This document shows positions 1 through 31,651 of a DNA stretch of 34,210 nucleotides, piece after piece. The position numbers were made by a program, and so were the translations under genes. The number at the start of each line of letters is the position of its first letter. Within the stretch, counting starts at the first letter, position 1. Source of the DNA: Gammaproteobacteria bacterium (GTDB lineage: Bacteria > Pseudomonadota > Gammaproteobacteria > SZUA-229); contig QIHT01000188.1 of the NCBI GenBank assembly GCA_003229115.1, positions 1 to 34,210 on the forward strand, given 5' to 3'. The notes under the pieces were generated by a model, which ran no database searches, had not been told where the DNA came from, and saw only the letters and a program-made list of their open reading frames with translations.

Positions 1-906
1 CTGGATATGGACAAGGCATTGCCTTACAAAAGAGGCAAGAACGGTTTTTACGATACCGAGGAAATCTTACGCGACATCATCCGCGCCTCGGAAGGCACCG
101 ATACCGACCTGACCGGTATTCTTGAACGTGAAAAAATAGATGGAATTTCACCTTACGAGCAACTTAAAGAACTAAGAGGCATTCAATGGCCCGCACCAAC
201 CTATGCAATCGCAAAAGCCGGTGGCACCAAACGCCGCTTCATGCTGCAGGAAGGTAACTGGAAAAACAAACCCTACGGCTACTTCCGCACCAAAGATGGC
301 AAGGTGCACATAAAACTGTGCGAACAGGACTATAGTGACCGCGAAGCCATTACCAAAAAGCTGATGGAATTCGGCAAAAAGAAGGGACACTACACCATCG
401 ACAACATTGCGCTACTCAAGGAAGCGCGTGACAAAGGCCTGACACCGGATTTACCCGATGAAAAAGAACGCGGTAAAAAATGGAACAAGGTGCCGAAGGA
501 TAAGTATCCATACTGGCTAGGTCTTGGCGTGGTGTACGAACATTTCCATACCGCCAAATCAAATCGTAGCCCAACCACGCGTAGACTGGTACCTGAGATG
601 TATGTGGAAATGCATCCTGATGATGCTAAAGATCTCGGCATTAAGGATGGCGATAAAGTTAACCTGATTACCCGTCGCGGAAAATTCCAGGCCAAGGCTC
701 AGGTTGGCGCAAACAGTCTGGTTAAACCGGCTCGTAACAATGTTCCAAGAGGATACATGTTTAGCCCATGGAACCTGTCAGTCGCTGACAGTGCTGATCC
801 AAAGAAAAACAAGTGGTTGGTGAACAGCACCTCCAGTCGTGTTTGGGATCCCGTTTCCGGCCAGGTAGACTTCAAGAAGCTGGCTGTCAGGATCGAAAAA
901 GCTTAG
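1..906 (+). CDS. NapA-like molybdopterin oxidoreductase, C-terminal part (5' end outside window)
   Basis: The frame is open from base 1, so about 301 C-terminal residues of a longer enzyme are visible. The last ~130 residues resemble the molybdopterin-dinucleotide-binding domain of the NapA encoded at 8345: TTRRLVPEMY, VEMHPDDAKDLGI, LITRRGKFQAKA and NNVPRGYMFSPW line up with [34 protein letters not shown] and [12 protein letters not shown]. The preceding part diverges strongly, so this is a paralogue and not a duplicate. The catalytic and Fe-S regions are upstream and unseen, so the substrate is open; nitrate is possible but unproven. Downstream genes encode NapG/NapH-type quinol-side partners but no NapB or NapC, suggesting a periplasmic enzyme fed by the Fe-S proteins. 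Family confidence is good; function is unknown. Confidence 0.8.
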   Translation: MDMDKALPYKRGKNGFYDTEEILRDIIRASEGTDTDLTGILEREKIDGISPYEQLKELRGIQWPAPTYAIAKAGGTKRRFMLQEGNWKNKPYGYFRTKDGKVHIKLCEQDYSDREAITKKLMEFGKKKGHYTIDNIALLKEARDKGLTPDLPDEKERGKKWNKVPKDKYPYWLGLGVVYEHFHTAKSNRSPTTRRLVPEMYVEMHPDDAKDLGIKDGDKVNLITRRGKFQAKAQVGANSLVKPARNNVPRGYMFSPWNLSVADSADPKKNKWLVNSTSSRVWDPVSGQVDFKKLAVRIEKA

Positions 907-947
907 CCAGATAAGCTCTTCATGCTATGTTTTCTGGGCTAATTTTT

Positions 948-1009
948 TGTAGGTGCGAATTCATTCGCACAGCAGTTTTATGCATCGTGCGAATGAATTC
1001 GCACCTACA
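948..1009. repeat. Perfect 23-bp inverted repeat (dispersed family A)
   Basis: Arms at 948-970 and 987-1009 are exact reverse complements with a 16-nt loop; the arm core is GTGCGAATGAATTCGCACC. A second copy lies at 24550-24617. It fills the gap between the NapA-like gene and the NapG-like gene and ends 8 nt before the GTG start, leaving no room for a normal ribosome binding site. The hairpin might affect mRNA stability, but it has no U-tract and is not a typical terminator. Confidence 0.85.
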
Positions 1010-1017
1010 TTAGCATT

Positions 1018-1593
1018 GTGAAACGCAGAAACTTTCTGAAAGCAACAGGAATGAGTGTAGTCGCGTTAGCGTTGGCTCCCACAACAACTCGTGCAGCGAA
1101 AAATCAACCATCTCTGCGCTTCCTGCGTCCACCCGGCGCACTGCCTGAAGAAGAATTTCTGAGTCGCTGCATTCACTGTGGCCAATGCGGTGAAGCTTGC
1201 CCGAATCGTTGCATCAAATACTTCGGACTGGAGAATGGTCTTACCTCCATTGATACACCTTATATAATCCCGCGCGAAAAAGCCTGCATCCTGTGTATGA
1301 AGTGTGGCGATATCTGCCCTACCGGCGCCATTCAAAAAGTTAAAGTTGAGCTTGAAGACATACTCGACAAAGTACATATGGGTACAGCAGTTGTAGATAA
1401 ACAACTGTGCCTGTCCTGGCAGGGAAAGAGTTGCGGCGTGTGTTACCGCGCCTGTAAATTACCCGATGTCGCTATTCGTGTTGGCTACATGGAACAACCG
1501 CACGTACTGGAGAATTGCATAGGTTGTGGCTTGTGTGAGCGTTCGTGCATACAAATTCCGCAAGCCATCAAAATACTACCCCGTAAGACATAA
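1018..1593 (+). CDS. NapG-like Tat-exported ferredoxin with four Fe-S motifs
   Basis: This 191-residue protein starts with a Tat signal (MKRRNFLKATGMSVVALALA, then TTTRAA), so it should fold in the cytoplasm and be exported. Four cysteine motifs follow: CIHCGQCGEAC, CILCMKCGDIC, the irregular NapG-type CLSWQGKSCGVCYRAC, and CIGCGLCERSC. In the NapG family such proteins pass electrons from a NapH-type membrane partner to a periplasmic enzyme. The start is GTG; an in-frame TGA at 994-996 limits upstream choices. It sits between the NapA-like gene and a napH-like gene, and its likely client is that NapA-like enzyme. It resembles the ferredoxin at 5017 (shared RPP-AL-E-EFL lead-in), but that one lacks an export signal. 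The name napG is avoided because this is outside the true nap operon. Confidence 0.85.
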   Translation: MKRRNFLKATGMSVVALALAPTTTRAAKNQPSLRFLRPPGALPEEEFLSRCIHCGQCGEACPNRCIKYFGLENGLTSIDTPYIIPREKACILCMKCGDICPTGAIQKVKVELEDILDKVHMGTAVVDKQLCLSWQGKSCGVCYRACKLPDVAIRVGYMEQPHVLENCIGCGLCERSCIQIPQAIKILPRKT

Positions 1594-1605
1594 CATGCAG
1601 ATATT

Positions 1606-1711
1606 TTTACCACAGAGGACACAGGGATACACAAAGGTTTTTTATTTGCGCTTCGCACAAATAACTAATAATTGTTTTCCTCTGTGCACCTCTGTGCCCT
1701 CTGTGGTAAAT
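1606..1711. repeat. Imperfect ~32-bp inverted repeat (dispersed family B, CCACAGAGG type)
   Basis: Arms at 1606-1637 and about 1680-1711 are near reverse complements built on TTTACCACAGAGGACACAG and CTGTGCCCTCTGTGGTAAA. Related arms occur at 24481-24500 and 24728-24757. The element occupies the whole gap between the napG-like and napH-like genes and would put a large hairpin into the transcript. Confidence 0.8.
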
Positions 1712-1727
1712 AAGTTTTTCTAATATT

Positions 1728-2729
1728 ATGACGCCAATAAAGCCATTTTTTCTCTGGAAACACCTGAACAAGTTACGCTGGGTTACCCTGTCCGTTGTAT
1801 TTTCAATGTTGATTTTTCTGCCTTATGCCCATTTATATCAAACCTACGAAGCTGCACATGCTTATGACCTACTTGCTGATTCCGAAAAACAAATTTATGA
1901 CACGATGGAAACCATCACATCACCGTTCATTAATGACCCAGAAGAAGATCTGGATGCAATTAAAGGCAATACCTGGTCAGGCACGTTCTTTGGTTTGCAA
2001 CTAAGCGATCCTTTAGCAGTAATCGGTCAAATATTTTCCAGCTTAACTTTCTATACACCTTTTTTACTCACTGCGCTCATCCCGATTGCTTTCACATTGG
2101 TCTTCGGGAGATTTTTCTGCGGCTGGATTTGTCCTGCAACATTTATCTATGAGCTCAATACCAACTTTTCTGCATGGTTACGCCGTGCCGGTTTGAAAAC
2201 CGGAAATCGACGTTTCGACCGCCGCGTAAAATATCTGGTACTCGGCACAGGTTTGGTTCTATCTGCATTCAGCGGTTCAGTAGTGGTTGCCAGTGTGTAT
2301 CCACCCGCTATTGTTGGACGTGAAATATATTATTCCATTGCGCTGGGCGGTTTTGGCGCTGGGTCAATTTTCTTTGTCGGTACACTGATGTTTGATTTAC
2401 TGGTTGCACGCCGTGGTTTTTGTCGTTACTTATGTCCTGGTGGCGCGCTTTACTCAATTCTCGGTCGTTTCCGAATTTTCCGCATTCAACGCATTGTTGA
2501 AAACTGCAATGATTGCGAAAAATGTAACGCTATTTGCGAATTCGGTCTCGACCCTTTACGTGACAGTTTCGGACAGGAATGCAATAACTGCACTGCCTGT
2601 ATAGCAATTTGTCCCACTGATGCATTGACATTCAAGGTACAAATAAGCGATGCGCCTGATAAGGGGCCCGGCCATTTGGGACGACAATATTCCAAAAATA
2701 AAGTGGGTATTATCGAGGCAGCAGCATGA
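1728..2729 (+). CDS. NapH-like polytopic membrane Fe-S protein
   Basis: A 333-residue inner-membrane protein with hydrophobic segments at roughly 18-37, 105-128, 167-190 and 205-226. The NapH hallmarks are two CxxxCP motifs (CGWICP at 131-136, CRYLCP at 232-237) and two C-terminal 4Fe-4S motifs (CNDCEKCNAIC at 260-270, CNNCTACIAIC at 285-295). In Nap systems NapH oxidizes quinol and passes electrons to NapG, which matches the upstream gene. Its stop overlaps the next start in ATGA at 2726-2729, so the two are translationally coupled. Family assignment is firm; its partner enzyme is inferred from gene order. Confidence 0.88.
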   Translation: MTPIKPFFLWKHLNKLRWVTLSVVFSMLIFLPYAHLYQTYEAAHAYDLLADSEKQIYDTMETITSPFINDPEEDLDAIKGNTWSGTFFGLQLSDPLAVIGQIFSSLTFYTPFLLTALIPIAFTLVFGRFFCGWICPATFIYELNTNFSAWLRRAGLKTGNRRFDRRVKYLVLGTGLVLSAFSGSVVVASVYPPAIVGREIYYSIALGGFGAGSIFFVGTLMFDLLVARRGFCRYLCPGGALYSILGRFRIFRIQRIVENCNDCEKCNAICEFGLDPLRDSFGQECNNCTACIAICPTDALTFKVQISDAPDKGPGHLGRQYSKNKVGIIEAAA

Positions 2730-3376
2730 ATCGATCAGGTTATAGACTTCAGGCTTTAGGTTTCAGGCTAAAACAGAGCCTTCATGCGTTTAGGTTTTCC
2801 TATGGCCTGAGGCCTGCAGCCTGTATCTTTCTACTTCTACTAGTAGAAACAGCCAACGCCCACCATGTTCTTGGCAGACCCGCTTACAGTTTAAACGAAG
2901 ATTCAAACACCCCGCCCAGTATGCAGGTGGAAACCCAAATCGGTGATTACTTTGTTACTTACATGATTTTTCCTGCGTTTCCAAAAGCGGGCGAACGTGG
3001 CCGCGTCAATTTATATGCAACTCGTATCGACAATGGCAAGGCATACAGTGGTGAAGTTACTTTTAAAGTCAGAGACGATGTTTATTTTGGTAATGACAAC
3101 TCTGAAACACTAGGTTCACAATTACCTGATGACAGCGTTTTTCGACAGGGCTTTGAATTTAGCAGCAATGGTGAATACATCATTACCGCAGAATTTACCG
3201 AAGCTGGAGAACCCTACATTATTGATTTCCCTTTACGTATAGGCCCTCCATCTTCAATCGGCCCTATAGGCATTGCTGTTGGTAGCATCGTAATTATTTT
3301 AGTTGGCGTTAATCTTGTACAACGAAAACGACTGCTGACTTCAAAAATACGTAATGCACATGAAGAAACACCGTAA
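2726..3376 (+). CDS. FixH/YtkA-like periplasmic protein with C-terminal membrane anchor
   Basis: This 216-residue protein has a signal-like hydrophobic stretch at about 31-44 (AACIFLLLLVETANA), a beta-rich middle (IGDYFVTYMIFPAFP, then NLYATRIDNGKAYSGEVTFK) resembling FixH/YtkA-type domains, and one transmembrane segment near the C terminus (IGIAVGSIVIILVGVNLV) with a basic tail. Cleavage after ANA would leave His-His at the mature N terminus, a possible metal site (inference). The start ATG overlaps the upstream stop. The first ~30 codons coincide with a repeat-like sequence (2741-2822), giving an unusually long n-region. Role unknown; the context suggests an assembly or electron-transfer accessory of the NapH-type proteins on either side. 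Confidence 0.7.
   Translation: MNRSGYRLQALGFRLKQSLHAFRFSYGLRPAACIFLLLLVETANAHHVLGRPAYSLNEDSNTPPSMQVETQIGDYFVTYMIFPAFPKAGERGRVNLYATRIDNGKAYSGEVTFKVRDDVYFGNDNSETLGSQLPDDSVFRQGFEFSSNGEYIITAEFTEAGEPYIIDFPLRIGPPSSIGPIGIAVGSIVIILVGVNLVQRKRLLTSKIRNAHEETP
2741..2822. repeat. Imperfect inverted repeat inside the signal-peptide region of the FixH-like gene
   Basis: The left arm contains ACTTCAGGCTTTAGGTTTCA and the right arm GGCCTGAGGCCTGCAGCCTG; they are imperfect reverse complements (about 13 of 18 compared positions match). This composition is typical of intergenic palindromes, yet here it is translated. No alternative in-frame ATG lies downstream of it. Confidence 0.5.
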
Positions 3377-3398
3377 TAACTATGTGTGATGAAATATC

Positions 3399-4931
3399 AT
3401 GACGATGACACATCCCGGCCTTCCCGACTTCTGGGGACTGGTTATCATTGGTTTTATATTGTTGGGCGTACTGTGGACATTATTTTCTCCCGCTCCCATA
3501 AAAATACGCACCTCGGTGTTAAGCCTGGCCAGCATACCTGTCATTGGCACGGGTATGCGCAATCTGGTTGCCAACCGCTGGCTACTACTGTCACTAAAGT
3601 TTGTGATGGTCGGTTTTTTCCTGCTGATAATATTTGCTGGCCTGTTTGGCACACCGATACCCGAGCGTAATATTGCAACTGTATTGACGTGGAACTTATG
3701 GTGGTCCGGGCTGGTGTTTTCAATCTTCTTTTTAGGTTCCGCGTGGTGCGCCGTTTGCCCCTGGGATGCGCTAGCGCAATGGTTAGTCCGCCGAAAACTG
3801 TGGCGACGCGCCGAACCCAATAACAGTCTTAATATCAAGGTTCCCCGCTGGCTGGCAAATGTGTGGCCGGCCTTATTGATGTTTATTGCACTCACCTGGT
3901 TAGAACTGGGTGTTGGTATCACTGTCAACCCTTACGCAACGGCTGCGGTTTCACTATTAATGGTAGTACTCGCCACTGCATCGCTCGCCATTTTTCAACG
4001 TAAGGCTTTCTGTAGATATTTTTGCCCTGTTGGCCGCACAGTCGGTTTTTATTCTCAACTGGCACCTATCGAACTACGGCCAATTGATAATGATACCTGC
4101 GCAAGCTGTAAAACACTGGACTGTTATCACGGCAATGAAGAAGTCGAACCCTGCCCAACCTGGTTGGTGATGGGACGACTAAAACAAAACAGTTACTGCA
4201 CCTCCTGTGGCAACTGCACACAAAGCTGCCCACATGAGAATATTGCCTGGCGTTTTCGACCACCCAGCGTTGAAGCATTGCACAGTGCACGTCCGCACTG
4301 GGATGAGTCATGGTTTATGATTGGCTTACTGGCACTGACAGGTTTTCATGGCGTAACCATGATGCCTTTCTGGGAAACATGGATGAGCCAGTTTGCACAA
4401 TTAACAGGTGACTCGGGGCGCTTGTTACCTAGTTTTACTATCGGCCTGCTTGCCTGCATCGCAGTTATCGCAGCCATATATTCAATACTGATCGAAGTCA
4501 CGCGAAAAATCACGGGTACCGATCTGGAATACAAACGCTTATTTTCAACCTTCGCCTTTGTCGCACTGCCACTCGCGTTTTCTTATCACATGGCACACAA
4601 TCTCAATCATCTAATCAGAGAGAGCGTTGGCATTAGTGCTGTTTTTTCAAACCCCTTAGGTGTTGATACTGTTCCTCTGAGTATGATGGAAAAACACGAA
4701 CGTCACTTAACCATGTGGATATCGCAGGATGCATTATTCACCATACAGGCAGGTCTGATGATTTTTGGTTTCTGGATTGCCCTGCAGGTAATACGGCATC
4801 GTGGCTTGAGTGTCATTGCAATAAATAACAAATTAGCCGGAGTTAAACTGTTACCAATGCTAACTTTTGCAATTGGCATAACCAGCTTCCATTTGTGGTT
4901 GCTGATGCAACCCATGATTATGAGAATGTAG
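3399..4931 (+). CDS. Large NapH/CcoG-like membrane Fe-S protein with His-rich C-terminal membrane domain
   Basis: At 510 residues this is much longer than usual NapH. The N-terminal half has the NapH layout: hydrophobic segments, two CxxCP/CxxxCP motifs (CAVCP at 117-121, CRYFCP at 205-210), then CASCKTLDC (234-242) and CTSCGNCTQSCP (267-278). The C-terminal ~200 residues add at least four hydrophobic segments with conspicuous histidines: H317, H397, H400 and H404 (YHMAHNLNHL), H433, H436 and H498 (SFHLWLLMQPM). Paired membrane histidines could ligate heme b or metal, but no recognised heme motif is proven. It lies between the FixH-like gene and a second ferredoxin gene, repeating the NapH-ferredoxin pairing. 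Two starts are possible (3399, 3405). I do not know its specific function. Confidence 0.82.
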   Translation: MTMTHPGLPDFWGLVIIGFILLGVLWTLFSPAPIKIRTSVLSLASIPVIGTGMRNLVANRWLLLSLKFVMVGFFLLIIFAGLFGTPIPERNIATVLTWNLWWSGLVFSIFFLGSAWCAVCPWDALAQWLVRRKLWRRAEPNNSLNIKVPRWLANVWPALLMFIALTWLELGVGITVNPYATAAVSLLMVVLATASLAIFQRKAFCRYFCPVGRTVGFYSQLAPIELRPIDNDTCASCKTLDCYHGNEEVEPCPTWLVMGRLKQNSYCTSCGNCTQSCPHENIAWRFRPPSVEALHSARPHWDESWFMIGLLALTGFHGVTMMPFWETWMSQFAQLTGDSGRLLPSFTIGLLACIAVIAAIYSILIEVTRKITGTDLEYKRLFSTFAFVALPLAFSYHMAHNLNHLIRESVGISAVFSNPLGVDTVPLSMMEKHERHLTMWISQDALFTIQAGLMIFGFWIALQVIRHRGLSVIAINNKLAGVKLLPMLTFAIGITSFHLWLLMQPMIMRM

Positions 4932-4937
4932 AGGGTA

Positions 4938-5010
4938 GTATCTTGTGTCTGGTTTCTAGTGTCTAGAAATAAACCTGCAAACCAAATGCAAGAAACCAGA
5001 AACTAGATAC
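4938..5010. repeat. Imperfect inverted repeat between the large NapH-like and ferredoxin genes
   Basis: Left arm near TCTGGTTTCTAGTGTCTAG (from 4938) pairs imperfectly with AAGAAACCAGAAACTAGATA ending at 5010. It ends 6 nt before the next ATG, so it may influence translation of the ferredoxin gene. No U-tract is present. Confidence 0.65.
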
Positions 5011-5016
5011 AGGAAT

Positions 5017-5589
5017 ATGGATAGAAGAGCTTTTTTTAGAACTGCACTCGACAAAGGTGGAAAAGCCGTTGTCAAAGCCGCTGACAGCAGCGCCAAAAAA
5101 CAGGCGGCACGATGGATTCGTCCACCTTATGCCCTTAATGAGCTTGAATTTCTATTAGCCTGCACGCGCTGCGGTGATTGTATTGATGCCTGTCCACATG
5201 ATGTCATATTTCCTTTATCCGCCAAAATGGGAGCGAAAGCTGCCGCCACGCCAGCACTGGATTTACTCAACAAAGGCTGCCACCTCTGCGAAAACTGGCC
5301 CTGTGTGACAGCCTGTGAAGCCAGGGCATTGCAACGACCCGAGTCTGATACCGACACCCTAAATCTGCCAAAACTGGCAAAGATATCCATAGATGAGCAG
5401 ACATGTTTGCCTTTCAATGGCCCCGAATGTGGCGCCTGTATAGACAGTTGTCCGGTTCCCGGCGCACTTACCCTGGAACTATATAAGCCATTGATTAACA
5501 GAGATATTTGTACTGGCTGCGGCCTATGCATTGAAGCCTGTATCGCCGAACCAAAAGCCATAAAGATTGCATCCCTTTATTCTCAGTGA
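5017..5589 (+). CDS. NapF/NapG-like ferredoxin, probably cytoplasmic
   Basis: A 190-residue protein with four Fe-S motifs: CTRCGDCIDAC, CHLCENWPCVTAC, CLPFNGPECGACIDSC and CTGCGLCIEAC. The N terminus has an RRAFFR sequence like Tat signals, but a charged, Ala/Lys-rich stretch follows instead of a hydrophobic core, so export is unlikely; NapF proteins have a similar leader. The lead-in RWIRPPYALNELEFL matches RFLRPPGALPEEEFL of the ferredoxin at 1018, so the two are related. It closes the first redox cluster. In Nap biology NapF helps mature or reactivate NapA in the cytoplasm; here its client would be the NapA-like enzyme (inference). Confidence 0.82.
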   Translation: MDRRAFFRTALDKGGKAVVKAADSSAKKQAARWIRPPYALNELEFLLACTRCGDCIDACPHDVIFPLSAKMGAKAAATPALDLLNKGCHLCENWPCVTACEARALQRPESDTDTLNLPKLAKISIDEQTCLPFNGPECGACIDSCPVPGALTLELYKPLINRDICTGCGLCIEACIAEPKAIKIASLYSQ

Positions 5590-5625
5590 GGCGTGTATGA
5601 TTCTGGTATCAGAAGACTTTGCGGC

Positions 5626-5675
5626 TTGATATAGGTCATAGCCCTGACCGGCAAACGCCCTATATAATGCAGCAA
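5626..5675 (+). promoter_or_regulatory. FNR-type class II promoter of moaA
   Basis: TTGATATAGGTCAT at 5626-5639 matches the FNR/Anr consensus TTGAT-N4-ATCAA with two mismatches and keeps the TGA-N6-TCA core. A perfect TATAAT lies at 5663-5668, predicting a start near 5675, which puts the site centre (5632.5) at about -42, the class II FNR position. This geometry strongly supports anaerobic activation of moaA and the downstream permease gene. Confidence 0.72.
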
Positions 5676-5687
5676 AACAGGAAAATT

Positions 5688-6692
5688 ATGACAAGCAAAC
5701 TACAGGACAAACGCACCTCTCTGATCGACCCTTTCGGTCGTCAGATAGAGTATGTGCGTCTGTCAGTCACTGATAAATGTAATTTTCGCTGCTTCTATTG
5801 CTTGCCTGAAGGATTCAACAACTTTGAACAACCTGAACACTGGTTGACGTTTGACGAAACCGAACGTGTCATAAAAGCATTCACAAAACTGGGCGTGAAA
5901 CGTGTTCGTATAACCGGTGGTGAACCGCTGGTAAGAAAAAACGTTACAGAACTTTCTGCCAGACTAAACCAACTTCCCGGCCTCGATGATTTGTCACTTA
6001 GCACTAACGCCAGTTTACTTGATCGCCATGCACAGGACTTGTTCGACTCAGGCATTTCACGTATTAACGTTAGCCTCGATACATTACATGCTGATCGTTT
6101 CAAAAAAATAACCGGTGGTGAATTGCAACCGGTATTAGATGGCTTAATGGCAGCGAAAATAGCTGGTTTCAAACCCGTCAAAATTAACATGGTTGCAATG
6201 AAAGGCATCAATGATGATGAGTTTGAAGACATGGTTGAATTTTGTCTTAAACATGACTTCACCTTAAGAATGATTGAGACCATGCCGATTGGCTCAACCG
6301 GTGTTAATGCCAGTAAACATTACCTTGATTTACAAAAAGTAAAACAGCAATTGTCTGAACGTTACGAACTCATTCCTGGCGTCATGCCTGGTGGTGGGCC
6401 AGCACGTTATGTTCAGGTTAAAGGTACTGATTTACGCATCGGCTTTATCACACCCATCTCACAACACTTCTGTGAAACCTGTAACCGTGTACGACTTTCA
6501 GTGGATGGGACTTTATATCTCTGCCTCGGTCAGGAACACAAAGTTGAACTACGCCCCTTACTTCGACAAGGTATTAGCGATGAAGACTTGCAGCAAGCTA
6601 TCCTCGAAGCCATCGCAATAAAACCTGAACGACATGACTTTAATGCTTCACCGGGTAAAGTCGTACGGTTTATGAGTATGACCGGCGGTTAA
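5688..6692 (+). CDS. moaA: GTP 3',8-cyclase (molybdenum cofactor biosynthesis)
   Basis: Radical-SAM enzyme that converts GTP to the 3',8-cyclo intermediate in the first step of molybdopterin synthesis. The N-terminal SAM cluster motif is CNFRCFYC, followed by ITGGEPLVRK and SLSTNASLL. The C-terminal substrate cluster has FCETCNRVRLSVDGTLYLC, and the protein ends in the expected Gly-Gly (MTGG). The ATG at 5688 is preferred over upstream in-frame starts: AGGA precedes it by 5 nt, and the predicted transcript begins near 5675; the product is then 334 residues, normal for MoaA. It supplies cofactor for NapA and the NapA-like enzyme, both in this window, and appears induced under low oxygen by the FNR-type promoter. 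Confidence 0.95.
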   Translation: MTSKLQDKRTSLIDPFGRQIEYVRLSVTDKCNFRCFYCLPEGFNNFEQPEHWLTFDETERVIKAFTKLGVKRVRITGGEPLVRKNVTELSARLNQLPGLDDLSLSTNASLLDRHAQDLFDSGISRINVSLDTLHADRFKKITGGELQPVLDGLMAAKIAGFKPVKINMVAMKGINDDEFEDMVEFCLKHDFTLRMIETMPIGSTGVNASKHYLDLQKVKQQLSERYELIPGVMPGGGPARYVQVKGTDLRIGFITPISQHFCETCNRVRLSVDGTLYLCLGQEHKVELRPLLRQGISDEDLQQAILEAIAIKPERHDFNASPGKVVRFMSMTGG

Positions 6693-7544: not shown

Positions 7545-8051
7545 GTGAACACAGCAATCAGCAGAATGCAATTCTTGCGTGGGGATTTCTCCGGGCAAAT
7601 AGCACCTGTCAGACCACCCTGGTCATGCGCTGAACACACCTTTACTCAATTATGCAATCAATGTGGCAAATGCATTGAGCAATGCCCTACTGACATAATT
7701 AAAACCGGACGAGGCGGCTATCCAGTTATCGAATTTCATTCAGGCGAATGCCTGTTTTGTGATGATTGTGCAACAGCTTGCGAAACCGGTGCGATAAAAA
7801 AAATCGATGTCGTTCCCGCATGGGATATCCGCGCTTCAATAGATACTAATTTATGCCTGACATACCAGAAGGTAGAATGCTTCAGCTGTTCTGATCCTTG
7901 CGAAACACGTGCCATAAAAATGACACCCCAACCTGGCGGCATTTCTATTCCCACACTTATTACTGCGCAATGCACAGGTTGCGGTGCCTGTTATGCCGTC
8001 TGCCCGGTAACAGCCATCAACATAAATTCATTAACACGAGAGGCACTATGA
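7545..8051 (+). CDS. napF: NapF ferredoxin-type protein
   Basis: A 168-residue cytoplasmic Fe-S protein with the NapF-like leader SRMQFLRGDF and cysteine motifs CNQCGKCIEQCP, CLFCDDCATAC, CLTYQKVECFSCSDPC and CTGCGACYAVCP. NapF binds NapA and helps insert or maintain its Fe-S cluster before Tat export. GTG at 7545 is the best start because the NapF leader begins there; ATG at 7566 would cut into it. First gene of the true nap operon; its stop overlaps the napD start (ATGA). Confidence 0.92.
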   Translation: MNTAISRMQFLRGDFSGQIAPVRPPWSCAEHTFTQLCNQCGKCIEQCPTDIIKTGRGGYPVIEFHSGECLFCDDCATACETGAIKKIDVVPAWDIRASIDTNLCLTYQKVECFSCSDPCETRAIKMTPQPGGISIPTLITAQCTGCGACYAVCPVTAININSLTREAL

Positions 8052-8278
8052 ACATTAGCGGCGTACTGGTACATGCCTACCCAGAACATGTCGATTCTGT
8101 AGGACAGTCTCTAGCAGAGCTGGAAGGTGTTGAAGTTCATGGCAACAGTAACGACGGAAAAATAGTGGTGACTGTGGAACAGAATAACGCCAACCACATG
8201 TCAGATATTCTTAACAACATGCAAACCATCCCAGGCGTTCTTTCTGCATCGATGGTTTATCACCAGTTTGAAGAGTAA
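8048..8278 (+). CDS. napD: NapD Tat-proofreading chaperone
   Basis: A 76-residue NapD: it starts MNISGVLVHAYPEH and contains the expected IPGVLSASMVYH. NapD binds the Tat signal of NapA and holds back export until cofactor is inserted. ATG at 8048 overlaps the napF stop; a longer frame upstream runs through napF coding sequence and is rejected. Confidence 0.93.
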   Translation: MNISGVLVHAYPEHVDSVGQSLAELEGVEVHGNSNDGKIVVTVEQNNANHMSDILNNMQTIPGVLSASMVYHQFEE

Positions 8279-8295
8279 GTGCATTAAAAAATATT

Positions 8296-8319
8296 ATTCT
8301 CTAAATACTAATAGAGAAT
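8296..8319. other. 8-bp hairpin between napD and napA
   Basis: ATTCTCTA (8296-8303) and TAGAGAAT (8312-8319) form a hairpin with an 8-nt loop, 26 nt before the napA start. There is no U-tract, so it is not a terminator; a role in napA mRNA stability or relative expression is possible. Confidence 0.5.
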
Positions 8320-8344
8320 ATCAAGGTCACCAGGAGGCCTGATA

Positions 8345-10885
8345 ATGAAATTAACCCGAAGAGCTTTCATTAAGAGCAATGCCATTGCTGCAACTGCCGC
8401 TGCCGCAGGCATCACCATCCCAGGCATTAAAGAAGCCATGGCTAAATCAAAAGACATCATACGCTGGGATAAGGCACCATGTCGATTCTGCGGCACAGGA
8501 TGCAGCGTACTGGTTGGCACAAAGCAAGGTCGCATTGTTGCCACTCAAGGCGATCCCAAATCACCGGTTAATCGAGGACTCAATTGCATTAAAGGTTATT
8601 TCCTGTCAAAGATTATGTACGGCGAAGATCGATTAACAACACCATTGCTTCGCATGACTAATGGCAAGTACGACAAAGAAGGTGATTTCACGCCCGTAAG
8701 CTGGGAAAAAGCTTTCGATGTTATGGAGGAAAAATTCAAAGCTGCACTAAAACATGATATTGCAGCTAATAAAGGTAAAAAGCCAGAAGAGATCGTTTCC
8801 ACCGTAGGTATGTTTGGATCAGGTCAATGGACCGTATGGGAAGGCTATGCCGCATCGAAACTATACAAAGCCGGCTTTCGCTCCAATAACATAGACCCTA
8901 ATGCACGCCATTGTATGGCATCTGCCGTGGGTGCATTTATACGCGGCTTCGGCTCCGACGAACCTATGGGTTGTTACGATGACCTCGAACATGCAGACGT
9001 ATTTGTGCTGTGGGGTTCAAACATGGCAGAAATGCATCCCATATTATGGACGCGCCTGACCGATACACGTCTTAATAAAAAAGACTGTGAAGTACATGTG
9101 CTATCAACCTTCGAGCACCGTTGCTTTGATCTCGGCGATAACAACATGGTGTTTACACCACAAACAGATCTGGCCATTCTTAACTACATCGCCAACTACA
9201 TTATTCAAAACAAAGCGTATGATAAATCTTTTACTGACAAACACGTCAACTTCACAAAAACGCCAACCGATATCGGCTATGGTTTGCGTCCCGAACACTC
9301 TTTGCAACAAAAAGCAAAAAATCCTAATAAGGGAAAATTATCCAACATAAGTTTTGATGAGTACGCCAAATCAGTAGAGCCCTACACGCTTGAATACACC
9401 GCTGAACTTTCTGGCGTGCCTGAAGAAAACTTATTACGTTTAGCCAAAGTCTATGCCGACCCTAAAAAGAAAGTAACTTCTTTCTGGACCATGGGGTTCA
9501 ATCAGCACACTCGTGGTGTTTGGGCTAACGGTCTGGTTTACAACATACATCTGTTAATGGGAAAAATATCCGAGCCCGGCAACAGTCCGTTCTCACTGAC
9601 GGGTCAACCTTCTGCCTGTGGCACTGCGCGCGAAGTTGGAACTTTTTCACATCGCCTGCCTGCCGATTACGTTGTTTCGAAAAAACCACACCGTGACCTT
9701 GCAGAGAAAATCTGGAATTTACCCGAAGGCACCCTAAACGGGAAAAATGGTTACCATGCAGTTTTACAAAATCGCATGCTAAAAGACGGCAAGTTAAATG
9801 CCTATTGGGTTCAATGCAACAACAATGTACAGGCAGCCGCGAACATCAATGAAGAGGTTTTACCGGGGTATCGTAATCCAGCTAACTTTATTGTTGTTTC
9901 CGACCCCTACCCCACAGTAACAGCAACCGCTGCTGACTTGATTCTGCCTACGGCCATGTGGACAGAAAAAGAAGGCGCTTACGGCAATGCAGAACGTCGC
10001 ACACAGTTCTGGCGCCAACAAGTTAATGCGCCGGGCGAGTCGAAATCTGATTTATGGCAAATTGTTGAATTTTCTAAACGATTCAAAGTGGAAGATGTAT
10101 GGCCGGCGGACATCATCGCTAAAAAACCTGAAATGAAAGGAAAAACTTTATACGAAATTTTATTTACCAATGGACAAGTTGATCAGTTTCCTAAAACAAC
10201 TATTCGCGATAACGAGGGCAACATATACGCCAACGATGAAATGGATGACTTCGGATTTTATTTGCAAAAAGGTTTATTTGAAGAATACCGACGCTTTCAG
10301 TACGAAGGCCCAAAGAAAGGACATGAACTAGCAGCTTTTGACGTTTACCACAAAAACCGTGGGCTTCGGTGGCCGGTTATTAAAGGCAAAGAAACCTTAT
10401 GGCGCTACCGCGAAGGACACGATCCTTATGTGAAAACTGGAGAGAAATTTAACTTCTATGGCAACAAGAATGGTAGAGCCAATATCATTACCGCACCTTA
10501 TGAGCCGGCTGCAGAAAGCCCAGATGAAGAATACGATTTATGGCTAAGCACTGGTCGCGTACTGGAACACTGGCACTCAGGCACAATGACTCGTCGAGTA
10601 CCCGAGCTCTATAAAGCTTTTCCGGACGCCGTCATCTACATGCATCCAGACGACGCAAAAGAAAGAGGATTAAGCCGAGGACTTGCTGCCAAAATAGTTA
10701 GTCGGCGTGGTGAAATGAGCGCACGAATAGAAACTCGCGGGCGTAATCGAGTACCTAGAGGTTTAATCTTTGTGCCGTGGTTCGATGCCAGTCGTTTAAT
10801 TAACAAAGTAACACTGGACGCAACCGATCCTTTATCCAAAGAAACAGACTACAAAAAATGTGCCGTTAAGGTTATTAAGGCCTAG
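8345..10885 (+). CDS. napA: Periplasmic nitrate reductase catalytic subunit NapA
   Basis: This 846-residue bis-MGD molybdoenzyme reduces nitrate to nitrite in the periplasm. Tat signal: [20 protein letters not shown]. The 4Fe-4S motif CRFCGTGC plus a later Cys (GLNCIKGY) follows, and ARHCMASAV carries the Cys that ligates Mo in NapA. The C-terminal cofactor domain is intact through [20 protein letters not shown], and the length is normal for NapA. AGGAGG lies 8 nt upstream of the ATG, a strong ribosome binding site. Electrons should arrive through NapC and NapB encoded just downstream; NapD and NapF upstream handle maturation. No napG/napH are in this operon; the homologues in the first cluster might substitute. 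Confidence 0.97.
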
Positions 10886-10906
10886 AGAACAACACGAGGT
10901 TATATT

Positions 10907-11353
10907 ATGAATAAAAAATTAATCATCATGTTTGTGTTATTTCTTGCCGCAGGATTTAACCAACAGGTAATAGCGGGTGAGCTTCAGTCATTACGCGGCA
11001 GTGTAGATACAGACAAAAATTCTAAAGCTCCCGAACTAAAGAAATACTCAAAAGACGGTGAACCGATTGCGCGTGACTACGTGCAACAGCCACCCTTAAT
11101 TCCACATAAGATAAAAGGCTATCGGGTTAACAAGAACGCTAACAAATGTCTGAGTTGTCATAGTTGGAAAAACTATCGTGAATCAGGCGCGACCAAGATA
11201 AGTCAAACTCACTTCGAAGACAGAGAAAAACATGTACTTGCAAATATATCTGCTCGTCGCTACTTCTGTACTCAGTGCCATGTTCCACAAGTTGTCTCTC
11301 CTCCGCTCGTAAAGAACAACTTTAAACCTGTTGCCGCGATAACTGGCGAGTAA
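10907..11353 (+). CDS. napB: NapB diheme cytochrome c subunit
   Basis: A 148-residue periplasmic protein with a signal peptide (KLIIMFVLFLAAGF...VIAG) and exactly two heme-binding motifs, CLSCH and CTQCH, as in NapB. It relays electrons from NapC to NapA. The spacing (22 nt after napA, 32 nt before napC) indicates one transcript. Confidence 0.95.
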   Translation: MNKKLIIMFVLFLAAGFNQQVIAGELQSLRGSVDTDKNSKAPELKKYSKDGEPIARDYVQQPPLIPHKIKGYRVNKNANKCLSCHSWKNYRESGATKISQTHFEDREKHVLANISARRYFCTQCHVPQVVSPPLVKNNFKPVAAITGE

Positions 11354-11385
11354 ATCTCTCGCCGACCACTTAACGGAACATTGTT

Positions 11386-12012
11386 ATGAATGAAAAAAAA
11401 TCTAACTGTAATGACAAATTTATTTGTCGAATTTGGCAGTTACTTAAAAAACCTTCAGTCAAGTACTCACTTGGTGCTTTACTCGTGGTCGGCTTCATCT
11501 CTGGCATTCTCTTCTGGGGTGCTTTCAATACAGCAATGGAGATGACGAATACCGAGAAGTTTTGTATTTCCTGTCATGAAATGGAAGACACTGTATACCA
11601 GGAATACAAAGAAACCATTCATTACAGCAACCGCACAGGTGTACGTGCAACTTGCCCGGATTGCCATGTACCAAAAGAATGGCATCACAAAGTAGTACGA
11701 AAAATACAAGCCACTAACGAGTTATGGCATAAAGCACTTGGCAGTATCGACACTCTCGAAAAATTTGAAGCTAAACGCCTTACTCTTGCAAAAAATGTCT
11801 GGCGAGCCATGGAAACCACAGACTCTCGTGAATGTCGCAACTGCCATAACTTTGAATTTATGGACTTTGCCGAGCAAGGGCGTCGTGCCGTTAAAGCTCA
11901 TTCTGAGGGACTCACTTCTGGCAGCACCTGCATTGATTGCCATAAAGGTATCGCTCACAAACTACCTGATATGCGTGAAGTTGACTCATCAGCTGTAGTC
12001 GGCGATAAGTAG
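11386..12012 (+). CDS. napC: NapC tetraheme quinol dehydrogenase
   Basis: A 208-residue NapC/NirT-family protein: cytoplasmic N terminus, one membrane anchor ([20 protein letters not shown]), then four CxxCH motifs (CISCH, CPDCH, CRNCH, CIDCH). It oxidizes membrane quinol and feeds NapB. Only 17 nt separate it from pdxS, so the transcript probably continues into pdxST and ubiT. Confidence 0.95.
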
Positions 12013-18042: not shown

Positions 18043-18240
18043 TTATCCACAGATGAACGCAGATAAACACGGATAAAAGCCAAGGTAAAAGCAAAATATT
18101 TTGGCCGCGAATAACGCAAAGGGCGCAAAAAAAACAAAACATAATTAGCTTTTAAAGACTTTTTCGCGTTCTTTGCGTTATTCTCGGCCTAAGACTTTTG
18201 TTTGTTTTTTATCCGTGTTTATCTGCGTTCATCTGTGGAC
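18043..18240. repeat. Nested double inverted repeat (dispersed families C and D)
   Basis: Outer arms at 18043-18077 (ATCCACAGATGAACGCAGAT) and 18208-18240 (ATCTGCGTTCATCTGTGGA) are near-perfect reverse complements. Inside them are inner arms at about 18103-18132 (GGCCGCGAATAACGCAAAG) and 18160-18189 (CTTTGCGTTATTCTCGGCC). Together with the hairpins to the right they account for the gene-free stretch between yhcC and nrdJb. The inner type recurs around 25936 and 26112. Confidence 0.82.
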
Positions 18241-24389: not shown

Positions 24390-24757
24390 ATTATTTGCCA
24401 CAGACACATTTGACGGGATCAAATGTGAACGCACAAAGTGCGGCCCGAAGGGTGGAGGGCAGGAAGCCCGAAATAACTCACAGAGCACACAGAGAAAAAC
24501 TTTTTATTGTTAAATAAACTACCCCGCCGTAAGCAAACCGGGTATTAATTGTAGGTGCGATTAAATCGCACAAAATGCAAGCATAACCAGTTTTGTGCGA
24601 ATGAATTCGCACCTACAGGTTACGTGGCAAGTCACTGTGAGTTACACCCACAGTGATTAAACCGTGTTCGTTACTCCCGGATGCTTTCAGCGGCAATAAC
24701 GATCCAGATAAGAAAAAATTATTTATACCTCTGTGTGCTCTGTGACCTCTGTGGCTA
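24390..24757. repeat. Gene-free block of nested inverted repeats (families A and B)
   Basis: Family B arms (CACAGAGCACACAGAG near 24481; CCTCTGTGTGCTCTGTGACC near 24728) enclose a family A element at 24550-24617 whose right arm (24595-24617) is identical to an arm at 987-1009. A separate perfect 9-bp hairpin, CACATTTGA/TCAAATGTG, lies near 24407-24429. No gene is evident in this ~400-nt stretch. Confidence 0.75.
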
Positions 24758-25905: not shown

Positions 25906-25935
25906 TTTTATATTATTGAAAGGCTAAAGATATTT

Positions 25936-26133
25936 AGCCGCGAAGAACGCAAAATACGCAAAGGAAAACGATGAATATTTTTTTACTATTTCAAAGTAGG
26001 CCAGCATAAGCGATAGCGTTGCTGGCGCTATTATCTGACATCGCAAAAAACGCCGGGAACGGCAAAGCCTTATCCCGGTCTACAGGTACATAAACAAAAA
26101 AGGTTTTTTTTCGCCCTTTGCGTTCTTCGCGGC
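25936..26133. repeat. Inverted repeat (family D) enclosing a second repeat (family F)
   Basis: Outer arms: AGCCGCGAAGAACGCAAAAT (25936) and CCTTTGCGTTCTTCGCGGC (about 26115-26133). Inside, about 26000-26085, is a REP-like unit (GGCCAGCATAAGCGATAGCG; CCTTATCCCGGTCTACAG) whose relative lies at 31811-31900. No gene is seen between the DUF4279-like and TPR genes. Confidence 0.75.
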
Positions 26134-26146
26134 AAAGTTTTTCTTT

Positions 26147-28173: not shown

Positions 28174-30060
28174 CTAGCTAGCAGCCTGCTTCTCCTCTTC
28201 ATCACCAACTAAGTGATAACAAGGAGCTTTTTCCATAGTGTACTCACCCGTTTTAGGATCACGACGAGAAACTGTCAGTACGTGCCAGTTTTCATCATCA
28301 AGCTTCATCGCATCACCACGGTAATAGTAACCAGGCCAGCGTGTTTCCTTACGGAATAAAGTATGCTGGAACACAGCCTCAGAAGTAAGGAAGCGATGCT
28401 TCAGTTCCCATGCACGTAGTAGCTCATGCACATCCTGAGCAGCAATATTCTCCAGATCTTCTCCAAAAACACCCATTTTCTTGAGGCCGATTTGTAGAAG
28501 TTTCTCGTTGGTCATGTAGTTAACACCAAAACCAGCACAGTACTCATCCATCAACTTCTGTAGACGATCAAGGCCCTGTCTTGGATTGATGTAATTTGGA
28601 TTAACATCACCAGCAACAATTTCGTTACGATAAACCGTATAAGTTTCCATAGGCTTATAAATCTTGGCCTTAAGCTCATCAATTTGCTTTTGATCAACAC
28701 GGATACCTTCAGCTTTACCATCATCAATATATTGACAGGCGGCTTTAGCTGCAAGACGACCTTCAGTGAAAGAACCTGAAGAGAATGCGTGAGGTGTACC
28801 ACCAACAGCATCACCCGCGCCAAACATACCTTCTACTGTGGTCATACGGTTGTAACCCCAGAAGTATTCATCAGGAGAAACATCTTCAGGACCTGAACAC
28901 CATGCACCACAACCTGTAGCGTGTGAACCCATAACATAAGGTTCAGAAGTTGTTAATTCAGGGTTTTCGTATTTAGGATCAACGTCTGTTGCAGCCCAAA
29001 GTACAGCCTGACCAACGGTCATGCCCAGGAAGTTGTGCCAGCCAATTTCCTCAAGATGAGGATCCTGGAACGCCTCCATGGTCACCATGTGGATAGGACC
29101 ACGACCCGCATTCACTTCATTGATGAATGCATGGTTACGTAAACAGGTTGGAATTGGTTTGTGAGATAAATGCTGGTTTTCCGTATCCAGGTATTCTTTA
29201 CCTACCATCTCTGTTAGAGCCGGGAACCATTTTGATTCATACTCTTCACCTATACCATTCTGGGTATAAGTCTTGAGGTGTAAGAAGTACGCGCCTACAG
29301 GACCGTAACCGTCTTTGAATCGAGCTAATACGATACGGTTTTCCATTTGAGTCATCTTCGCGCCAGCGTCGATCATAAGACCATAGGCAGAACCCGATGA
29401 CCATGGTGCGTACCAGACACGACCCGCGCCTTCACCCACTGAACGTGGTTTAAAGATGTTAGACGCGCCACCCGCACCAACGATAACAGTTTTAGCTTTA
29501 AATACGTGGTAGTTACCAGTACGAACGTTAAAGCCAACAGCACCCGCAACGCGGTTCTCTTTAGCATCGTCCATCAGCATGTGAGTTACACATATACGGT
29601 TAAATACTTTGTCAGCAGACTTCTTCGCAGCTTCTGCAACAATCGGCTTGTATGATTCACCGTGAATCATAATCTGCCAGCGACCTTCACGAAGGTAAGT
29701 ACCCGTCTTCTCATCTTTCATGATGGGCAGACCCCAGTCTTCGAACTGGTGAACCGCTGAATCTACGTGCCTGGCCATATCAAACGCCAGATCTTCGCGA
29801 ACCATGCCCATCAAATCCATACGCGCATAGCGTACGTGGTCTTCTGGATTATTTTCACCGAAGCGTGTACCCATATAACAGTTAATCGCATACAAGCCCT
29901 GAGCTACCGCACCAGAACGATCAATGTTTGCTTTTTCTGCAATAACAATTTTCTTGTCCTTGCCCCAATATCTCGCTTCAAACGCAGCACCGGTACCACC
30001 AAGGCCCGCACCTGCAATCAATACGTCGATATTGTCTTCAATAATTGTTTTGTAAGCCAT
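28174..30060 (-). CDS. aprA: Adenylylsulfate (APS) reductase alpha subunit
   Basis: A 628-residue flavoprotein of dissimilatory sulfur metabolism. In sulfur oxidizers it works in the oxidative direction, turning sulfite plus AMP into APS. The N-terminal FAD fold is VDVLIAGAGLGGTGAAFEAR; later GMFGAGDAVGGTPHAFSSGS closes the FAD site. The length fits AprA. Its ATG shares one base with the aprB stop (TAATG), so the two are coupled, and a terminator follows. Together with aprM this is the sulfur-oxidizer arrangement. A sulfate-reducing role is unlikely given aprM and the gammaproteobacterial context. Confidence 0.96.
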   Translation of the reverse strand: MAYKTIIEDNIDVLIAGAGLGGTGAAFEARYWGKDKKIVIAEKANIDRSGAVAQGLYAINCYMGTRFGENNPEDHVRYARMDLMGMVREDLAFDMARHVDSAVHQFEDWGLPIMKDEKTGTYLREGRWQIMIHGESYKPIVAEAAKKSADKVFNRICVTHMLMDDAKENRVAGAVGFNVRTGNYHVFKAKTVIVGAGGASNIFKPRSVGEGAGRVWYAPWSSGSAYGLMIDAGAKMTQMENRIVLARFKDGYGPVGAYFLHLKTYTQNGIGEEYESKWFPALTEMVGKEYLDTENQHLSHKPIPTCLRNHAFINEVNAGRGPIHMVTMEAFQDPHLEEIGWHNFLGMTVGQAVLWAATDVDPKYENPELTTSEPYVMGSHATGCGAWCSGPEDVSPDEYFWGYNRMTTVEGMFGAGDAVGGTPHAFSSGSFTEGRLAAKAACQYIDDGKAEGIRVDQKQIDELKAKIYKPMETYTVYRNEIVAGDVNPNYINPRQGLDRLQKLMDEYCAGFGVNYMTNEKLLQIGLKKMGVFGEDLENIAAQDVHELLRAWELKHRFLTSEAVFQHTLFRKETRWPGYYYRGDAMKLDDENWHVLTVSRRDPKTGEYTMEKAPCYHLVGDEEEKQAAS

Positions 30061-30551
30061 TAGTAGTAAACCCCTTCTTTCAATGTAAGGCCATTAGACT
30101 CGAGAGTGTGGAGACTATCCTTACCATCTTTATCGAGTTGAATATATTTAGGTTCGTTGTAAAGCAAATGGCTATTACGCATAGAATCAGCAGGTGCAGG
30201 CTCATCAGCAAGTTGGGGAATACCTGTGCCCCATGGCTTGGTAGTGATAGGCGCGAGCAGATCAAAGTCTTTTTTACCGTTACGGAACTTGATGCGCCAT
30301 GCAATGGTGCCTTTTTCTTCATCACGAAGAACACGTACCGAATGGCCTAGTGGCGCAAAGTCAGCATATCCACGTACGTCAATTGCCTGGTGTGGGCATG
30401 CTTTTACACAGGAGTAACACTCCCAGCACATGTTAGGTTCAATGTTGTAAGCACGTCGAAGGGTTTTATCGATGTGCATGATGTCAGATGGGCAGATGTC
30501 AACACACTGGCCACAACCATCACAACGAGTCATATATACAAAAGTTGGCAT
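30060..30551 (-). CDS. aprB: APS reductase beta subunit (ferredoxin-like)
   Basis: A 163-residue protein with two 4Fe-4S motifs, CDGCGQCVDICP and CWECYSCVKACP, in the N-terminal 60 residues, and the AprB-type C-terminal tail that wraps AprA. It carries electrons between the FAD of AprA and the membrane partner. It lies between aprM and aprA on one transcript. Confidence 0.96.
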   Translation of the reverse strand: MPTFVYMTRCDGCGQCVDICPSDIMHIDKTLRRAYNIEPNMCWECYSCVKACPHQAIDVRGYADFAPLGHSVRVLRDEEKGTIAWRIKFRNGKKDFDLLAPITTKPWGTGIPQLADEPAPADSMRNSHLLYNEPKYIQLDKDGKDSLHTLESNGLTLKEGVYY

Positions 30552-30604
30552 ATTATTTCTCTCTTATTCTATAAATTAGTTAATGGATATTAGTAATGCT
30601 GAGT

Positions 30605-31447
30605 CTAATAATGATTGGGTCTTTCGCGTTTGATACCAAGACCCATGTTAGCTGGGTTTTTGCCCATATATTGCGGAATATCCGGGAACTGTGCCTGTAC
30701 AGCAGGATCCGTCAAATCGAAATCAGCAGGTAGATTCTCAGCTGAACCATCTGCTTTAGTAATACGCTTCTGATAAGCCGCTGCAGGTTTGAAGAACATG
30801 TGAGCAAACTTGGACCAGAGCACACCACCGAACAGTATTGTGCTAGACATAATGAATAGACCAAACATCAGCCAACCCAGATCAGAGCCTTGAGTGTTGG
30901 ACCAGACCAATGCAAACGTACAGGTAGCAAGCAGCGAAACGATAAACAAATCTGCACGTACCAGTTTGAACAATGAAACGCCTTCAGAGTATACGTCAAC
31001 ACGAATAAAGAACCAGAACCAGTAACCACCGACACACAACATAATCGCACCGATGTGCCACAACATTGAGACCATTTCCGGAGCTGCTGCTTCAGGTGTT
31101 GGGAACATAAAAATCAGAATGGCTGTGGTCGCACAAAAAATGATGAATCCATACATAATGAGGAGGTGAGACATTCTACGAATCGGGTTAGCAAATTCTG
31201 AAGAAGTGATGACTTCACTGGTTACCGTTTTAATAGCCAGTGACATTTTTTCGCCACCGCTTACCTGACGTTTTGCTTCCTTCTCAGCTTTTTTTGCATT
31301 CTCGAAAAAGTACTGCGCACTCTTCTTATGCAGCATGTCTAAAATGGTTCCGCCTACAACAAGGAAGACCATGGCTATGACATAGGCCTGCATTGCATAT
31401 TCAGGAATAGTCGCCGAAAGCTCGGCGAAAGGATTGGTAGTAAACAT
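30605..31447 (-). CDS. aprM: AprM, membrane anchor of APS reductase
   Basis: About 280 residues with some six hydrophobic segments (YVIAMVFLVVGGTILDML, MYGFIIFCATTAILIFMF, MLWHIGAIMLCVGGYWFWFF, ADLFIVSLLATCTFALVW, WLMFGLFIMSSTILFGGVLW) and a soluble C-terminal tail. AprM is the presumed link between AprBA and the quinone pool in organisms lacking QmoABC. Start at ATG 31447 (MFTTNPFAEL), preceded by GAGGAG; the frame is open further upstream, but those residues look unstructured and overlap the regulatory palindromes. First gene of aprMBA. Confidence 0.9.
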   Translation of the reverse strand: MFTTNPFAELSATIPEYAMQAYVIAMVFLVVGGTILDMLHKKSAQYFFENAKKAEKEAKRQVSGGEKMSLAIKTVTSEVITSSEFANPIRRMSHLLIMYGFIIFCATTAILIFMFPTPEAAAPEMVSMLWHIGAIMLCVGGYWFWFFIRVDVYSEGVSLFKLVRADLFIVSLLATCTFALVWSNTQGSDLGWLMFGLFIMSSTILFGGVLWSKFAHMFFKPAAAYQKRITKADGSAENLPADFDLTDPAVQAQFPDIPQYMGKNPANMGLGIKRERPNHY

Positions 31448-31539
31448 TGAGTCTAAACTCCTCATTAGAGATAGGGGGTATTTAACGTGCGCGTATATTA
31501 AAGGATATTTGCCTTCTCTTCTATTCAATGTGCTTACTA

Positions 31540-31573
31540 GACCATAAAATAATTTTATGGTCTCCATAAAATT
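31540..31573 (-). promoter_or_regulatory. Overlapping palindromes with three alternating half-sites upstream of aprM
   Basis: GACCATAAAAT (31540-31550) and ATTTTATGGTC (31552-31562) form a perfect palindrome. The middle arm (AATTTTATGG, 31551-31560) is also an exact reverse complement of CCATAAAATT (31564-31573). The central arm can pair with only one neighbour at a time. It is 93-126 nt before the aprM start. This fits a multi-site operator or an attenuator-like switch; the regulator is unknown. Confidence 0.6.
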
Positions 31574-31651
31574 CACTAATAGAGAAACCACTTATCCCAT
31601 CAAATTTAGGCTGCCAGGTACCAGCAGATCGATGCGAAAGCATTATTAGAT

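Follow-up and report, generated by a model that had tools for sequence, protein, structure and literature searches.

Organization of the A2 gene cluster

The window analysed here is a stretch of 34,210 bases (bases 1–34210 of contig C2) from a draft gammaproteobacterial genome of 252 contigs that is 82% complete, and it opens with six open reading frames, all on the + strand and arranged head to tail (positions 1–5589; Table 1). The first is the 3′ part of a gene for a NapA-like molybdoenzyme, designated A2, and it is followed by genes for NapG-, NapH- and NapF-like iron-sulfur (Fe-S) proteins, a membrane-anchored protein (X) and a second NapH-like protein of 510 residues (H510). All six frames of a preliminary description of this DNA are present, and its proposal that a divergent enzyme of NapA type has a duplicated NapG/NapH set to itself agrees with the family scores, phylogeny and neighbouring genes given below. 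Judged from these, the cluster probably encodes a periplasmic nitrate reductase that draws on quinol, belongs to a new clade sister to NapA, and would convert nitrate to nitrite.

Table 1. Genes of the A2 cluster, with window coordinates unless locus L112 (contig C67) is named
Gene or product	Location	Strand	Features
NapC/NirT-family tetrahaem protein, upstream of A2 on C67	L112 7841–8482		napC_nirT model 257.8 bits, just below cut-off 310.6
Dihaem class-I cytochrome c, upstream of A2 start on C67	L112 8556–9248		
A2, NapA-like catalytic subunit, 3′ part (301 codons)	1–906	+	85% identical to residues 606–905 of P0007
NapG/MauM-like ferredoxin	1018–1593	+	GTG start; twin-arginine translocation (Tat) motif RRNFLK (periplasmic); four Fe-S cluster motifs; NapG model 142.5 bits, cut-off 269
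NapH-like membrane quinol-dehydrogenase subunit	1728–2729	+	CX3CP pairs; two 4Fe-4S motifs; NapH model 152.4 bits, cut-off 234
Protein X (P0004)	2726–3376	+	Predicted periplasmic beta-sandwich (Ig-like), anchored in the membrane at its C-terminus; invariant His following the signal peptide
H510, 510-residue NapH-like Fe-S membrane protein	3399–4931	+	Extra C-terminal multi-helix membrane domain with invariant H317 and H397
NapF/NapG-like four-cluster ferredoxin	5017–5589	+	RR motif, no hydrophobic export segment; napF model 68.9 bits, cut-off 102.2
moaA (molybdenum cofactor biosynthesis)	5619–6692	+	Open reading frame; same place beside the cluster in several relatives

Base 1 of the window is base 1 of contig C2, so that only the 3′ third of A2 is present there. 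This fragment has a recognizable Molydop_binding domain (Pfam) and its best-matching family is NapA, yet with a score of 75.9 bits against a cut-off of 904. The complete protein is represented by P0007, a 906-residue relative from locus L031. The end of contig C67 encodes A2 residues 1–32 (81% identical to residues 1–32 of P0007), preceded by genes for a dihaem cytochrome c and a NapC-like protein and, farther upstream, by divergently oriented moaB and moeA. The order moeA-moaB/NapC-cytochrome c-A2 is continuous in loci L029 and L031, and from this synteny C67 and C2 very probably join inside A2, with ~1.7 kb between them unassembled. Extension upstream to the full molybdoenzyme, suggested in the preliminary description, thus recovered its first 32 codons and not the segment between. 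The same description had reported no NapB, NapC or NapD; this holds for NapB and NapD, whereas the apparent absence of NapC is a contig-edge artefact, because the NapC-like gene sits on C67 upstream of the A2 start. The canonical NapC of the window scores 310.5 on the napC_nirT model.

In profile searches none of the NapG-, NapH- and NapF-like proteins of the window exceeds the equivalog cut-off of its own family; NapG and NapH are the best-matching families for the first two all the same, and the Fe-S motifs are kept. The motifs bear out the earlier assignments of a Tat-exported NapG-like ferredoxin and of a second, non-exported ferredoxin at the end of the cluster. A further NapG-like protein (NapG′) is present in most relatives and missing from the window copy.

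Protein X has no Pfam family, and a search with 35 members yielded no FixH and a single marginal match, to YtkA (E 0.19). Its predicted structure (mean predicted local distance difference test score, pLDDT, of 86) is an Ig-like beta-sandwich followed by a C-terminal membrane helix, such that the former label 'FixH-like' fits the general kind of fold and not the Pfam family. Foldseek gives weak matches to the copper-binding PmoD (E 3.8e-4, TM-score by query 0.37) and to CrdA; these are too weak to call X a copper protein and are a lead only. Compared with most relatives, X has an extended N-terminus (window 2726–2860) that overlaps repeat-like sequence (CAGGCTTTAGGTTTCAGGCT...); a repeat may have inserted in frame within the region of the signal peptide. 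H510 is predicted to be a many-helix membrane protein (pLDDT 83) with no significant Foldseek match to any solved PDB fold; H317 and H397, invariant in 43 sequences, lie in helices of the extra domain and could hold haem b or a metal. H510 also occurs without A2: it closes nir haem-d1 clusters in L078 (8944–10963; followed there by canonical nap) and L082 (8959–10530), and in a Zetaproteobacterium (L090 8441–10536) it is paired with an X homologue. X and H510 may be a module used more widely in nitrogen-oxide respiration.

Phylogenetic position and active site of A2

Full-length relatives of A2 are ~900 residues long and 27–35% identical to NapA; P0007 and P0008 carry a Tat signal (RRTFLKG/RRNFLKG). 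On the two NCBIfam NapA models (NAPA and PRK13532) P0007 scores 307.3 bits against a cut-off of 930.55 and 334 against 904, compared with 1472.7 and 1512.1 bits for the canonical NapA of the window. It reaches 224.6 bits on the NasC model (cut-off 1100) and 259.3 on that of NasA (cut-off 1000), and on the NCBIfam models for arsenite oxidase, ArrA, and selenate, thiosulfate and DMSO reductases it is far below cut-off and below its NapA score. The cut-offs of all other curated molybdoenzyme models are likewise well out of its reach. NapA is its top-scoring family and provides its nearest solved structures. Matches to A2 queries are either at least 61% identical, or ~39% and less over shorter stretches, with none between.

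In a tree of A2, NapA of Proteobacteria, Bacteroidota and Desulfobacterota, NasA/NasC and one formate dehydrogenase, NapA forms a clade with support of 100/100 and A2 forms another (100/100) on a long stem of 1.9–3.0 changes per site, the two being sisters at 97/94; a smaller tree agrees. Forcing A2 inside NapA is rejected by the approximately unbiased (AU) test (delta lnL 132.8, p-AU 1.6e-9), and the full-length enzyme therefore falls outside the NapA clade, a check set beforehand in the preliminary description. The length of the stem calls for caution, and the sister relation of A2 and NapA is less sure than the separation of the clades. A2 is closely related to the periplasmic nitrate reductase, has no name in use, and forms a clade of its own. 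Full-text searches of open-access papers, a set that excludes subscription papers and preprints, returned no description of this clade, and the accessible part of a study of the superfamily (PMC10100899) does not single it out. Papers on related organisms mention 'nap' (PMC10993476) or, for strain Hiromi 1, two Nap enzymes (PMC4136832), among which A2 might be included.

An ordinary NapA paralogue, i.e. a divergent Nap already covered by that name, would account for NapA giving both the highest family score and the closest solved structure, and annotation free of cut-offs would probably say napA; the 'two' Nap of a related isolate (PMC4136832), if one of them is A2, could be read in the same way. 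This explanation is nevertheless highly improbable given the score of 334 bits against 904, the position of A2 outside a 100/100 NapA clade that takes in Desulfobacterota-type and Bacteroidota NapA, the rejection of nesting, and the gene content of 60 A2 loci, none of which has NapB and only one of which (L034) has NapD, adjoining canonical napF.

The active site was compared in an alignment of 28 A2 and nine NapA proteins, with Escherichia coli and Desulfovibrio desulfuricans NapA as references and D. desulfuricans numbering (PMC13223375). All 28 A2 proteins keep the Fe-S cysteine, the Lys bridging the Fe-S cluster to the pterin, the molybdenum ligand Cys140, and Met141, Asp155, Gln346 and Arg354, the last four of which are absent from the aligned formate dehydrogenase. 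A review (PMC13223375) locates Arg354 over the catalytic pocket and regards it as a possible site for nitrate. An apparent exchange of the nitrate-binding Arg for His (in NQHIH) was rejected, the Arg being in the later GQPNAMG-ER motif and conserved by D. desulfuricans numbering. Four residues shared by the nine NapA proteins are changed in all 28 A2 proteins (E156 to T, M308 to I, E355 to F or L, and R720 to V), which counts against nitrate, since with these residues replaced the substrate might differ. The A2 pocket reads as one of nitrate type with an altered, less acidic channel.

These replacements, together with the long A2 stem, fit an enzyme whose periplasmic substrate is a different oxyanion or oxide (e.g. 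chlorate, selenate, iodate, arsenate, or an N- or S-oxide), reduced through the same quinol-linked carriers, and for which nitrate would be no more than a side substrate. NapA is present as well in many carriers of A2 (e.g. the window genome, and Shewanella gelidimarina with two), suggesting a non-redundant role for A2. The retention of Arg354, Gln346, Asp155 and the molybdenum-site Cys and Met, which separates A2 from the aligned formate dehydrogenase, and the low scores on the models of other oxyanion enzymes argue against such a substrate, as do the nitrogen-oxide genes beside the cluster (see below), and it is unlikely, if the most serious alternative to nitrate.

Conservation, genomic context and proposed function

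Searching 84,980 species genomes with H510 identified 78 loci, and about 60 A2 loci are found in Gamma-, Alpha- and Zetaproteobacteria and in deltaproteobacterial metagenome-assembled genomes (MAGs). They share the order cytochrome c-A2-NapG-NapH-(NapG′)-X-H510-NapF-like, often with NapC. Counted over 64 A2 loci, many of them on cut contigs and most chosen through H510, the partners are NapG-like (61), NapH-like (58), dihaem cytochrome (57), H510 (54), X (53), NapF-like ferredoxin (46), a further NapG-like protein (40) and NapC (32). When genomes are selected by A2 only (299 sampled across the phylum, E <= 1e-60), 17 match, of which ten, plus the window genome, contain A2 proper (at least 71% identity); relatives of the deltaproteobacterium that carries L099 contribute further A2 genes, with 61–66% identity. 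In all 11 A2-selected stretches with enough flank, cytochrome, NapG-, NapH- and H510-like genes surround A2 in unchanged order. Three deltaproteobacterial loci, all divergent, have no detected X. The co-occurrence proposed at the outset thus extends to other genomes, including loci chosen by A2 alone. The conserved set comprises eight to nine genes, of which the window holds one end; the six-part complex envisaged earlier does not match this set, and a complex cannot be shown from sequence.

A NarX/NarL-type nitrate sensor pair adjoins four A2 loci (L045, L058, L100 and L098). The sensor has the domain set of NarX, is 28.5% identical to E. coli NarX (E 1.8e-78), and its P-box matches that of E. 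coli NarX (SAHAINKAGSLRMQSYR compared with QATAINESGALRMRSYR). The cd1 nitrite reductase gene nirS adjoins A2 in L031 and L034. Genes for the molybdenum cofactor recur beside the cluster, and the neighbour lists of A2 loci contain no recognized arsenic, selenium or halogen gene. A DsbH-like (DUF255) gene next to some A2 loci was taken as incidental, and so were accessory genes of formate-dehydrogenase type next to L050. NirS falls into two groups, the L031 type (L031 12464–14176; 68–83% identical) and a second type at 42–47%; the majority of A2 genomes with NirS have the L031 type, as do just a few relatives without A2.

Eight A2 genomes that are >90% complete have both NapA and NarG below cut-off (G004, G034, G046, G079, G142, G158, G169 and G198), and A2 is the sole respiratory nitrate-reductase candidate detected in them; nirS is present in four of the eight and a full-length nosZ match in six. 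NirK (above cut-off in no genome) and NrfA (found only in Shewanella) do not separate the hypotheses. Besides the replaced active-site positions, several points weigh against a nitrate role. The narXL pairs are confined to a small number of lineages, some of them related. No NirS is found, at the sensitivity used, in the other four of the eight genomes, and NirS is also present in two near-complete relatives (G002 and G011) that have neither A2 nor detected NapA or NarG, because of which the co-occurrence of A2 and NirS is weak evidence. Most of the genomes compared are draft MAGs, and in the window genome nitrate reduction is already covered by a NasA-type enzyme and a full canonical napF-napD-napA-napB-napC set (window 7545–12012, lacking napGH), located within a few kb of the A2 cluster. 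The genome association backs a nitrate role for A2 and does not prove it. Nitrate is favoured as substrate because of the active-site residues and the neighbourhood, and no support was found for the sulfur substrate that had been entertained.

The proposed nitrate reductase would be specified by one operon-like cluster (MoeA/MoaB/NapC-dihaem cytochrome c-A2-NapG-NapH-(NapG′)-X-H510-NapF-like-MoaA), its substrate, direction of electron flow and order of partners being deduced from protein families, and the carrier roles and any complex likewise being deductions. What the sequences show directly is the A2 clade, the gene order, the Tat and Fe-S/haem motifs, the active-site residues and the co-occurrence. 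NapH/H510, and likewise NapC, would take electrons from quinol at the membrane and pass them via the NapG-type ferredoxin(s) and the dihaem cytochrome, in the place of NapB, to the 4Fe-4S cluster of A2 and then to its molybdenum site. A2, as a Tat-exported enzyme with a molybdenum bis-(pyranopterin guanine dinucleotide) (Mo-bis-PGD) cofactor, would reduce nitrate to nitrite in the periplasm, and X/H510 may be an added pair for membrane electron entry or assembly. NapF is an accessory protein acting in maturation, and its A2-cluster counterpart would have that role on the cytoplasmic side; since this last ferredoxin resembles NapF as well as an electron carrier, a second Fe-S path on the cytoplasmic side, as formerly suggested, is not sustained.

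The direction of electron flow could be the reverse, with A2 taking electrons from nitrite (to form nitrate), or from a one-carbon or sulfur donor, and handing them on to the class-I dihaem cytochrome c and the oxidase. The adjacent cytochrome resembles soluble cytochrome c/CcoP-type carriers and not NapB, few neighbours of A2 are as constant (57 of 64 loci), and the carriers of A2 include lithotrophs (e.g. aprBA in the window). NapC- and NapGH-type proteins are, however, quinol oxidizers that feed reductases, and the nirS, nosZ and narXL associations fit reduction, making an oxidative A2 very unlikely. A separate respiratory molybdoenzyme family, sister to NapA, with a non-nitrate substrate, electron entry through the double NapH and multiple NapG proteins, a possible haem or metal site in H510, and quinone coupling unlike that of Nap is a doubtful proposition, though less remote than an oxidative enzyme.

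With A2 the sole nitrate-reductase-like respiratory enzyme detected in several near-complete genomes that have nirS and/or nosZ, this unstudied protein may carry out the first denitrification step in many sulfur- and iron-oxidizing bacteria living at vents, in oxygen-minimum zones and in groundwater, and many sulfur and iron oxidizers probably use the cluster to respire nitrate. Surveys with strict napA and narG models miss A2, and looser ones probably fold it into napA. With two NapH-like and up to three NapG/NapF-like proteins, the module is a natural comparison for NapGH-type electron transfer.

The window host is probably a sulfur oxidizer, because aprA and aprB (both above cut-off) and a gene for a QmoC-like membrane protein are present at window 28174–31591. 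A perfect 23-nucleotide inverted repeat (TGTAGGTGCGAATTCATTCGCAC) lies between A2 and the NapG-like gene (window 948–1009), with another exact copy at 24595–24617, and is a dispersed palindromic repeat. Long imperfect intergenic palindromes are located at 1606–1710 (ACCACAGAGGACACAG...), within the module, and at 18046–18239 (TCCACAGATGAACGCAG...) and 25934–26136 (GCCGCGAATAACGCAAAG...); the spacers of the window's copy of the cluster seem to be filled by palindromic elements. Elsewhere (G000 contig C56 4064–8192; L005), downstream of nirB, a 734-residue NasA-type enzyme is followed by a 611-residue fusion of Fe-S and multi-helix membrane parts, an unusual partner for an assimilatory nitrate reductase.

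Relationship to known systems

The A2 cluster has most in common with canonical nap (napEDABC/napFDAGHBC of E. coli, Paracoccus and Cereibacter), with which it shares a Tat-exported Mo-bis-PGD subunit with an N-terminal 4Fe-4S cluster and a Cys ligand, as well as NapG-, NapH-, NapC- and NapF-type partners. It differs in that A2 belongs to a sister clade (27–35% identity) and is ~900 residues long compared with ~830 in E. coli-type NapA, in having a class-I dihaem cytochrome instead of NapB and no NapD, and in having a second NapH-like protein with an extra membrane domain, protein X, and often a second NapG. The napMADGH and napAGHBFLD clusters of Desulfovibrio, Thermosulfurimonas and Campylobacterota, as far as the accessible parts of PMC5276818 and PMC5317091 describe them, similarly combine NapGH with an alternative cytochrome, and NapB or NapC may be absent. 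Their catalytic subunit is, however, described as NapA, and Desulfobacterota NapA-type sequences fall in the NapA clade; these clusters carry NapD, and no X or H510 is described for them in those parts.

The NasA/NasC/NarB enzymes share with A2 the active-site Cys, Met, Asp, Gln and Arg, with spacing one residue shorter before the Arg, but they are cytoplasmic, have no Tat signal, have NirBD partners and form separate clades. In CcoG/CcoH (FixG/FixH), as in H510/X, a Fer4_5 membrane Fe-S protein adjoins a membrane-anchored beta-sandwich protein. X has no Pfam FixH match, though, and H510 no CcoG match, the CcoG model giving no more than a weak hit (30.8 bits, cut-off 316.7), and this to the other NapH-like protein, and the likeness is one of layout only.

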